From: Thamnidium elegans
Lineage: Eukaryota; Mucoromycota; Mucoromycetes; Mucorales; Mucoraceae
Direction of reading: 5' to 3'
DNA length: 64,000 nucleotides
NCBI GenBank assembly: GCA_025201345.1
Contig: JAIXMG010000009.1
Location: 558,001 to 622,000, forward strand
The notes under the pieces were generated by a model, which had not been told where the DNA came from, searched no databases, and saw only the letters and a list, made by a program, of their open reading frames with translations. The position numbers and the translations under genes were made by a program. Shown piece after piece: positions 21,946-25,136 of this stretch (position 1 is the first letter of the stretch; every line of letters begins with the position of its first letter).

Positions 21946-23977
21946 TTACCTAATCTGCATACGGGTGGCTTCAACAAAAGAAATGGCTATTCTTAGTTCC
22001 TTTTCTGTTCTTGCTAAATCGATTGCTTTTTCATAATATTTTAATGCTTCAGTGTATTTATCTTGGTCTAAATACATTTGTGCTAAAGAAGCTACGGCAG
22101 CATCACAAGCAGGATCAGCTATTATATTTACAATAAAATTTTAATATATATATATTTGTACATATGCGTGCTACTATAATACCTTCAAGTGCGCTCTTGC
22201 ATAAATTAATAGCTTCTTCTATTTGATAACTTTGATACTTGACCATCGCTTTATTGATATAAGGTAACGGGTGGTTTGGATTTAGTGACATGGCTTTATT
22301 AAACATATCAGTAGCTCGAATCGAATCTCCTTTATCTGCCAATACTTCTCCATAGTAATTATAAGCGTCTGATGACTGAGGAAAAATTTTAATAGTTTGT
22401 TCAAATGTTTGTATAGCATTTGATACCATCCCGAGTTTATATTGTGTTACTGCTAATTGGATATACGCATAAACAAAACTAGGGTTTAACATTAGACTCT
22501 TTTCGTAGTCAAGTATAGCTTGTTTATAATCCCCACTAATATAGTAAACTAAAAGCAGTTTAGTTTAATTTTTTTTTCTATAAAATAAAATTAAATTAAC
22601 CTTGGCCTCTATGGTAGTAAATATCAGGGTCCATAGGACTCAACTCAATAGCATTTTCAAATACTTGTAAAGCATCTTCTGTATCACCCAATTCCATTAG
22701 GATACTAGCTCGTTTTATATAACTTTGAATATAAGTAGGATCCGATTGAATTGATTGATGTAAACATGTCAGCGCAGTATTAGCATCGCCTTTTAAAAAT
22801 GCCAAGGTGCCCTTCAAGTTTAAAGCAAGTGCTACGTATTTTTCCGAACATCCTAGTACAATAGCTTTTTGACAGTCTTGGAATGCTTCTTCGTACTTTT
22901 TTTCGGCTAGCGCTCTTCTTGCTTTAGCATAGTGTGCGTCTCCGTTTACTGTATCTGTACTTGACGGTATATCCATATTACTATCTTTTTTTTTTAAAAA
23001 AAAAAAAATTAATTTCCTACAAGTTATTATTATTATTATATTTTACCAGGACGGAAACAATCAAAGTAAGCAGAAACAAATGTAGCAGAAGGAAATCTCG
23101 GTTGTTTTATCTATTATAGACCATGTAAGTATAGATTATGTGTATATTCAACAAAACATCCTTACCTTTATTAATTGTTTTGCCTTTTCCTCCGATACTT
23201 GCTTTAAAATTCTTTCTCTTTCTAAGGCGGCATTTACGTTTCTAAAACCTTCCAAAATACAAACACACGTATAGTCTATTTTTATATATCCTTATTAAAC
23301 TTCTTTTTTGATGTTTACAAAGTGTATATACTTTACCAAAGAGAGCTTCAGATAAATCCCTCTTTTTTTCTAAAGCTTGTGCTCGACAATACAATGCCTT
23401 TGTAAAAGTAGGATTTAATAATAGAGCAGTGTTACAATCTTCTAATACTTTATCGTAGAGTTCCATATTTGCATAACAGGCAGCTCGACTAGCATAAAAT
23501 GAAGCGTTGGATTGAAATCGAATTGCTTGTGTGTATAATCGAATTGCTTCTGCATAATTCTTATTATTGAATGCTAAATTTCCTTTGGTTTTAAATACAT
23601 TGGCAGCAGATAAACGTTGCTTTTTATGTATATGTAGCAGGTTAAATAATTATTTTTTCTATTCCATACAAGTTTTTACCTCTGGTGCCATGACAGAAAT
23701 AATAGCGTCTGTCATTGACTCATATGCAGATAATGGTACTTCATCATGTGCTATTGATATATATATATATATATATTTGAGTGATAGGAATTATGATTAG
23801 CGAAACAAAACAAAAAAAAAACTTACTAGGTGGTGAAGGTGGAGTTGGTGGATGATAGAATTGATTACAGATCAAGAATGCAGCACCAGTACCTGCCAGT
23901 GTAATACCTAAAACAATAGCTACGTATAATTTCCAGTCTCTATTACCAATATAATTTCGGACGTATATTCTAGACAT
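21946..23977 (-). CDS. TOM70: mitochondrial import receptor Tom70
   Basis: Outer-membrane receptor of the TOM complex that docks Hsp70/Hsp90-bound carrier precursors. Spliced model: complement(21946..22118, 22183..22548, 22601..22984, 23047..23110, 23166..23248, 23337..23619, 23680..23750, 23827..23977), 524 aa. N-terminal membrane anchor at residues ~17-37 (LYVAIVLGITLAGTGAAFLI), a Pro-rich linker (HPPTPPSPP), then TPR repeats: SAANVFKTKGNLAFNNKNYA, AIRFQSNASFYASRAACYAN, the middle FPSATFVSAYFDCFRP, and repeated TPRs to the end (SDAYNYYGEVLADKGDSI, NPNHPLPYINKAMVKYQSYQ). Shorter than yeast Tom70 (617 aa) but full TPR order. Upstream 191 bp is shared with VPS55. Confidence 0.93.
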
Positions 23978-24168
23978 TTTGGGATATATGAGAAAGATGG
24001 AAAAATATGTATGAAGGTGGGGGGGGGGATTTCATTGTTTAAATAACACAATACACAGACAATTGGCGTTGTTTTAAATAATTGTCTGGTGATACTTATC
24101 CAAAAAAATAAATACTTTTTTTTTTTTCTTTTTCTTTTACATACACGCACCAAGAGAATTACAACATT
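23978..24168. promoter_or_regulatory. shared divergent promoter, TOM70 and VPS55
   Basis: 191 bp between opposed start codons, with a G-run near 24020-24029 and a T-run near 24118-24128. Confidence 0.5.
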
Positions 24169-24277
24169 ATGGCAGGTTTAAGAAGTAAGCAATACAATGT
24201 TTACGATTTATTCACGTTTATTATTTAACTTTTTTTTGTTTAGCGTAAGAATACATATTTATATATATTCCCATTAC

Positions 24278-24308
<31 letters not shown>

Positions 24309-24542
24309 ATGACAATATTTTAGCATTATTGCATTGGCTTTTGTTTTAGCTATTGGTTTCTTGTTAGTTATTTTATCGTGCGCTCTTTTCTCGTAAGTTT
24401 CTTTTTCTTTTTCTTTTTTTTACTATGAACCTCTCCACTAGACTCTCTTTTTTTCTTCTTTTTAATAATGTAATAGTAACTGGTGGCCGTTATTAGTCGG
24501 TAAGTCTGTTTTGTACTATTAAACTCATCAATTACTTTTTCT

Positions 24543-24579
<37 letters not shown>

Positions 24580-25136
24580 GATTACACAGTCGCAACTTAT
24601 ATATTAGCTCCATTACCTAACGCTTTATGTGGAAGGTGTGCTGGAGAAGATGACCTCATGTCTGACTATAACGGGTACGAAAACTATTATCAAACAACGA
24701 CAACAGTATATATACGCTGATACTTTTTTTTTATATTGTAGTGGCGCACTTGATGCGGGTCATTTTATTACTGGCATGTTTATTGTAACTGGATTTTGTA
24801 AGTTTTCTTTTTGTAGTGTATATATAAAAGATTTTTTTAATGTTTTTTTTTTTTTTTTTATATAAAAGGTTTACCATTTGTTCTTGCTCATGCTGAAGTA
24901 GTAAGTATTTAGGGGGGGGGGATGAATTATAAAAAAGTTGGATTGTACTGATATACGAAATAGATTACTGTCCCGGCCATGATTATGAGTATTGCAGGTG
25001 GTGTTTTGGTATATGGAACAAGTAAGAATTTATATATTTCTGTTTGTTTTTTATTGCTAAATATGGTTCTTTTTTTTCTTTTGTAATAGTTATTGCATAT
25101 ACACATTTTTTCGCTCATCAAGGTGACGAATTTTGA
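24169..25136 (+). CDS. VPS55: Vps55 / LEPROT family endosomal membrane protein
   Basis: Four-span endosomal protein; in yeast Vps55 works with Vps68 in late-endosome to vacuole traffic. Spliced model: 24169..24184, 24244, 24324..24392, 24477..24499, 24590..24674, 24742..24797, 24869..24900, 24964..25021, 25090..25136: 387 nt, 128 aa. Protein pattern: MAGLRTIIALAFVLAIGFLL, VILSCALFSNWWPLLV, LAPLPNALCGRCAGEDDLMS, ALDAGHFITGMFIVTGFCLP and ending FFAHQGDEF, matching yeast Vps55 (GFLALGFLLVILSCALF, LAPIPN, DLAHFLTGM). Exon 2 is a single base (C24244) between TTTAG and GTAAGA; without it the frame breaks and a stop follows quickly. Nine exons for 128 residues is unusually fragmented. Confidence 0.92.
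24244..24244 (+). other. VPS55: one-nucleotide microexon of VPS55
   Basis: C24244 is preceded by a poly-T tract and TTTAG (24239-24243) and followed by GTAAGA (24245-24250). Exon 1 ends AGA A and exon 3 begins C ATT ATT; inserting C gives ACC (Thr) and the frame of the conserved protein. The flanking introns would be 59 and 79 nt. Confidence 0.7.

Follow-up and report, generated by a model that had tools for sequence, protein, structure and literature searches.

Results

The VPS55 locus of Thamnidium elegans

The analysed window is a stretch of 64,000 nucleotides of T. elegans DNA, part of contig C64 in an assembly of 34.1 Mb and 64 contigs. According to our gene model, the gene for the membrane-sorting protein VPS55 occupies positions 24169-25136 on its plus strand and comprises nine exons of 16, 1, 69, 23, 85, 56, 32, 58 and 47 nt. 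These sum to 387 nt, i.e., 128 codons and a stop, which matches the 129 codons counted in the initial annotation. The predicted product (128 aa) is intact, similar to homologues across 128 residues, and matches the whole Vps55 domain of Pfam (PF04133, 155.3 bits, profile positions 1-119 of 120). A genome search revealed no second VPS55 copy in the assembly, and no solved structures matching the product were found. The minus-strand reading frame at 23801-23978 of the window appears, by eye, to begin about 190 bp upstream of VPS55. The features of the locus are as follows:

24169..24184, plus strand: exon 1, ATGGCAGGTTTAAGAA, with a phase-1 end; encodes M-A-G-L-R and contributes one base to codon 6
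24185..24243, plus strand: intron 1, 59 nt, GTAAGC...TTTAG, with TTAAC as a branch-like motif 14 nt from the end and eight T after it
24244..24244, plus strand: candidate single-nucleotide exon C, the middle base of the Thr codon 6 (A-C-C)
24245..24323, plus strand: intron 2, 79 nt, GTAAGA...TTTTAG (TTTTAG at 24318-24323), with a long T tract
24324..24392, plus strand: exon 3, starting in phase 2 with C ATT ATT GCA; the conserved Vps55 domain begins here
24350..24392, plus strand: shorter exon 3 from a rival acceptor (TTTTAG/CTATTGG), in frame, product without IIALAFVLA; start as in the T. elegans protein model P0014
24477..24499, plus strand: exon 4 of the gene model
24590..24674, plus strand: exon 5 of the gene model
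24742..24797, plus strand: exon 6 of the gene model
24869..24900, plus strand: exon 7 of the gene model
24964..25021, plus strand: exon 8 of the gene model
25090..25136, plus strand: exon 9 of the gene model, with the stop codon TGA

A phase conflict and the splice signals around C24244

Exon 1, whose MAGL-K/R N-terminus is common to most homologues, ends in phase 1 (24184), and the next conserved exon starts in phase 2 (24324), so that a single added base reconciles the two. The sequence agrees with the initial annotation in that exon 1 ends with an A before GTAAGC and the conserved coding resumes as C ATT ATT after TTTTAG. The annotation had also held that joining these exons directly shifts the frame and soon reaches a stop; indeed, the join of 24184 to 24324 gives MAGLRTLLHWLLF and a stop at codon 14. 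The base proposed to repair the frame, C24244, stands between TTTTTTTTGTTTAG and GTAAGA (TTTAG/C/GTAAGA), so that the AG before it and the GT after it both belong to usable splice signals, and its inclusion does yield ACC and the complete Vps55 protein, as had been claimed.

The stretch between exons 1 and 3 measures 139 nt when undivided, versus 63-90 nt for the six other introns of the gene, and its division at C24244 leaves introns of 59 and 79 nt, which are near that range. The donors GTAAGC and GTAAGA and the TTTAG acceptors resemble in style those of the six other VPS55 introns, which formed the whole comparison set for splice signals. A simple scan found no good branch-like motif near the end of intron 2, and the same is true of the last intron of the gene. 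The arrangement is not a recursive splice site, in which AG abuts GT and zero bases are kept, since C24244 intervenes. We dropped a de novo splice-site profile derived from introns between long open reading frames: it rested on 68 introns, many of them doubtful, and a stricter selection kept 6.

Enumeration of gene models and the residue at codon 6

We enumerated the models that start at any ATG within 23979-24392, use GT-AG or GC-AG introns (at most two, each of at least 30 nt) and reach exon 3 in frame, obtaining 180 models with 179 distinct proteins. They were scored with a Vps55 profile of 107 full-length homologues (P0038 or higher), some of them unnamed and none bearing the name of a member of the Mucoromycota. 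The model with the one-base exon ranked first with 194.3 bits, followed by a GC-AG model with an extra residue (186.8 bits), by several models that have two introns, one of them further upstream (185-186.7 bits), and, much lower, by the model joining the exon 1 donor to the acceptor at 24350 (166.7 bits). The GC-AG model trails by a modest 7.5 bits, a gap that comes from one position, together with the poor GCAATA donor of that model. Among the 180, the one-base-exon model is the sole one to give the family N-terminus MAGLR-T-IIALAF, and no enumerated arrangement yields the conserved protein start except a C set off by two complete GT-AG introns, each of ordinary length. The one-base exon proposed in the initial annotation is thus supported as a reading of this locus. 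An in-frame escape through the acceptor at 24350 had been missed there.

Exactly one residue lies between K/R and II/VI in 172 of the 213 homologues fetched, and this residue is Thr in 161 of them, the others having Ser (nine) or Arg (two); two residues occupy this place in 2 of the 213 models (P0031, P0210). As far as codons can be read from these proteins, the models with Ser or Arg may reflect plain introns, Ser being encoded as AG/C.

Chance occurrence of the motif

YAG-N-GTRAG, sought no closer than 45 nt to either end, was absent from all of 20,000 dinucleotide shuffles made of the 139-nt stretch; the looser YAG-N-GTRNG occurred in 0.015% and any AG-N-GT in 2.5% of them. When the rates are derived from the AT-rich window instead, they are higher: per 49 admissible positions, 0.0023 for YAGNGTRAG, 0.005 for YAGNGTRNG and 0.13 for any AG-N-GT. 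Genome-wide, TTTAGNGTAAG was found 103 times in 34.1 Mb (both strands), which by our own arithmetic corresponds to approximately 7e-5 for the 49 positions. There was no genome-wide enrichment of TTTAGNGTAAG (103 versus 102 in the reversed control) and no enrichment of the motif inside the window (1 observed versus 0.64 expected, and 13 versus 12.3 expected). Since the motif is no commoner than in the controls, it proves nothing by itself, and it gives no hint of a wide use of one-base exons in this genome; the argument is that the motif stands exactly where the frame needs one base. A chance origin of the arrangement around C24244 is unlikely.

A second T. elegans assembly and the alternative explanations

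The public T. elegans protein INT48_004883 (P0014) is identical to the protein from the window at all its 113 residues, and lacks two stretches, IIALAFVLA (24324-24349) and VATYIL (exon 5). To judge from the sequence, both omissions apparently arise by the choice of downstream acceptors, and this public model is probably wrong. Its contig is 140 kb long and the window lies on a contig of more than 622 kb, hence they represent two different assemblies. Presumably, P0014 derives from the T. elegans genome of 31 Mb in 3243 contigs, sequenced with Illumina and PacBio, that is described in PMC7928374; the locus tag is linked to that paper by inference, as INT48 does not occur in its text. The start of P0014, MAGLRT-IGFLL, is the product of joining 24184 to 24350, and exon 1 must therefore end in phase 1 in that assembly as well.

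The same join is the least improbable of the alternatives, though we find it very unlikely: exon 1 would be spliced to the acceptor at 24350, giving an in-frame 119-aa protein (MAGLRT-IGFLL) whose first conserved hydrophobic segment is shortened by nine residues. The sites are GT-AG and the start equals that of P0014; however, P0014 also drops a second conserved stretch, suggesting a makeshift of the annotation program. The score of this model falls well short of that of the one-base-exon model, the segment removed contains [IV][IV]xL[AS]F, which is present in 198 of the 213 models fetched (178 + 20), and TTTAG/C/GTAAGA is left unexplained. Possibly, this product may exist as a minor isoform. 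In transcripts, it is expected to show the junction AGAACTATTGG, versus AGAACCATTATT for the one-base exon; AGAACATTATT and AGAAGTAACATTATT are further candidate junction sequences.

Somewhat less probable still is the restoration of the frame by a weak GC-AG intron (AGAAGTAA/GCAATA...TTTTAG, giving MAGLRSN-IIAL), or by another upstream exon or shifted site. The GC-AG model scores second best, several models with an upstream intron come close to it, and the two residues of P0031 and P0210 at the place of codon 6 fit it. Against this, GCAATA is a poor GC donor lying 4 nt from a near-perfect GTAAGC, and the extra residues of P0031 and P0210 may be annotation makeshifts. The upstream-intron models depend on weak donors such as GTATGA and GTGGGG, and MAGLR is lost in many of the models listed.

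We consider it very improbable that a base is missing from the assembly at AGAAGTAAGC, i.e., that GTAAG is truly preceded by AGAAG or AGAAC and opens a single ordinary intron, in phase 2 and about 139 nt long (Ser or Thr). The Ser and Thr found at codon 6 among the homologues would result from AG/C or AC/C, and the model of Lichtheimia (P0035) reads as AC/GT. However, the start of P0014, from the different assembly, needs an exon 1 ending in phase 1, the Mucor plumbeus model P0002 reads as AGA AGT AAG with the same A/GTAAG junction, and an assembly indel does not explain why a candidate for a C exon lies just where one is needed. The one-base phase problem alone would also be compatible with ribosomal frameshifting, RNA editing or the decay of the gene. 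We regard these as extremely improbable: a splice solution is available and, with the C, this single-copy VPS55 is intact and similar to its homologues throughout.

VPS55 models of other Mucoromycota

Our searches found no VPS55 DNA of other Mucoromycota: the scan of the viral_contigs set gave 33 pattern matches and no relative, and the sole VPS55 found in the genome_contigs set belonged to a contaminant of ascomycete type and is not interrupted by an intron at the place of codon 6. This sequence (L005:2830-3560, NYXK01000211.1) is filed as a deltaproteobacterial MAG, and its ascomycete-type VPS55 with introns marks it as contamination. The relatives were therefore read by inferring codons from annotated protein models, not from their DNA.

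Several of these models hint at the phase conflict seen in T. elegans. That of Cunninghamella echinulata (P0027) continues directly after MAGLR with a frame-shifted exon 3, as the join of exons 1 and 3 would. P0028 (MAGLR-M-ATY) and P0203 of Mortierella (MAADLK-M-ATY) read as if a phase-1 exon 1 skipped to exon 5, and P0031 of Benniella has one added residue, as if the donor were displaced by 4 nt. Among the Mucoromycota-type models without exon 1 that extend upstream of II/VI, Ser precedes II/VI in 10 of 15 (the 10 include the partial model P0015, which begins with that Ser, and five rows from other fungi or unnamed sources were excluded), which fits read-through from YAG/C. In M. plumbeus (P0002), MAGLR is followed by S-K, as AGA AGT AAG would give, and in Calcarisporiella (P0121) Ala precedes II. 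These two fit a one-base exon, but we dropped them as proof of a conserved AG/C/GT: they are not decisive, because the retention of a single phase-1 intron (A/CC) followed by an unbroken GCC fits equally.

In favour of the proposed exon, the models of Helicostylum (P0007), M. mucedo (P0019) and a Rhizopus-like source (P0012) begin with MAGLRTII. The Lichtheimia model reads as a single phase-2 intron (AC/GTAYGT) of 87 nt and the start of Rhizophagus P0207 likewise as AC/GTAY, which argues that the one-base exon is not present in all relatives. An aberrant or missing N-terminus was found, in one search, in 23 of 39 Mucoromycota-type models versus 2 of 49 named Dikarya models (p = 7.6e-9), an excess that is not specific, as a 16-nt first exon is hard to annotate on its own. 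For this count, 32 unnamed models were excluded, P0031 was scored as intact, and the Dikarya model P0094 merely has Pro for Ala. The one-base exon may help to explain the 23 cases.

The naming and placement of some models also drew our attention. Two Phycomyces blakesleeanus models differ at codon 6 (Ser in P0024, Thr in P0050), and the junction may be uncertain there too. P0028, labelled Rhizopus arrhizus G6F42, and P0001, labelled Rhizopus stolonifer, are Mucor-like by eye, which suggests mislabelled or mixed assemblies. The Rhizopus microsporus VPS55 protein (P0013) carries the name "Putative Histone H3 (Lys9) methyltransferase SUV39H1/Clr4".

Discussion

We propose, from the genomic sequence and its homologues, that C24244 is very probably a constitutive one-nucleotide exon of VPS55. 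The two flanking introns, 59 and 79 nt long, would each be recognised whole by intron definition, and nothing more special would be needed. The acceptor AG overlaps the region that pairs with U1 (AGC/GTAAGA); on general knowledge of splicing, this would keep both introns from being handled there simultaneously, and they would have to be removed in succession. If intron 1 were removed first, exon 1 would become ATGGCAGGTTTAAGAAC and the GTAAGA donor would then be used; the reverse order would also work. Skipping of the C leads to a truncated frame, thus the gene works only if the base is often included, and constitutive inclusion would be the simplest view. The Drosophila recursive-splice (ratchet) sites, as presented in the available portions of PMC8605326, resemble the arrangement at C24244 in their abutting acceptor and donor and in stepwise removal; they differ in that zero bases are kept and the introns are long, whereas T. 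elegans VPS55 keeps one base between short introns.

In the open-licence literature, as far as its text was accessible, we found no report of a one-base exon in Mucorales or other Mucoromycota; the available part of PMC4462047 does not report such exons in Mucorales and just names a TopHat option. As far as we found, the candidate in T. elegans VPS55 would thus be the first one-base exon in Mucoromycota, of a kind already published elsewhere. One-base exons probe the lower limit of exon definition by the spliceosome, and published nuclear cases were found in three genes only, one of them the plant VPS55. The initial annotation had named the plant APC11 as precedent; this case is real (PMC4674806), yet the list was incomplete, as streptophyte VPS55 (PMC8831610, PMC9915684) and Fusarium CYP621A (PMC12940212) belong to it as well. 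The Arabidopsis APC11 exon, a single A, is needed for the frame like C24244, but gene and base differ, judging by the accessible text; in T. elegans, the APC11 domain is one uninterrupted open frame (G000:C40:34430-34621, L036). For mitochondria, single-nucleotide exons are described in the available parts of PMC5436844 and PMC12308204.

The CYP621A exon is supported by 18 RNA reads, and the authors, in the available text of PMC12940212, claim it as the first in a fungal gene and count it as the second example overall, plant VPS55 not being included. Insofar as that text describes it, CYP621A is like T. elegans VPS55 a fungal nuclear gene with a phase-1 exon end facing a phase-2 exon and with AG/N/GT, and the undivided stretch in F. 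graminearum measures the same 139 nt. Unlike VPS55, it is an ascomycete P450 gene, and the base is a G, the middle base of a Gly codon.

The closest counterpart is found in plants. In the accessible parts of PMC8831610, PMC9915684 and PMC11096116, a 1-nt microexon (cluster 2) in VPS55 of land plants and Zygnema is supported by RNA-seq and RT-PCR, and in Arabidopsis, overlooking it costs the first 13 residues (PMC8831610). On the basis of these portions, streptophytes and T. elegans share the gene and a one-nucleotide exon near the N-terminus (in T. elegans the candidate at codon 6); the streptophyte exon is missed by annotation, with the N-terminus being lost, and is followed, as in T. elegans, by a GTRAG donor (GTRAGT versus GTAAGA, 5/6 positions in agreement). 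Unlike the T. elegans case, plants also have VPS55 copies or transcripts without the one-base exon. The likeness concerns the gene and the N-terminal vicinity; the exact codon and phase of the streptophyte exon were not found in the accessible text, nor were codon positions in that of the LEPROT gene-structure papers.

It is striking that, of the few known one-base exons, one in plants and one in fungi should both fall close to the N-terminus of a single small gene, and the VPS55 exon may be either very old or twice invented. Within the fungi, it would be an older feature of Mucoromycota, not private to T. elegans, that annotation programs rarely express. We may tentatively speculate, while considering it rather doubtful, that the exons of Mucoromycota and streptophytes are the same and that two introns, separated by one nucleotide, split codon 6 before the divergence of plants and fungi, which took place more than a billion years ago. 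To our knowledge, such an exon would be older than any other microexon. Under this equally speculative scenario, lineages would later have lost one or both introns, with Lichtheimia keeping the phase-2 intron and one ascomycete-type gene keeping none there. The VPS55 case from an early-diverging phylum makes it testable whether a one-base exon has persisted since the split between plants and fungi or has originated repeatedly at the same spot.
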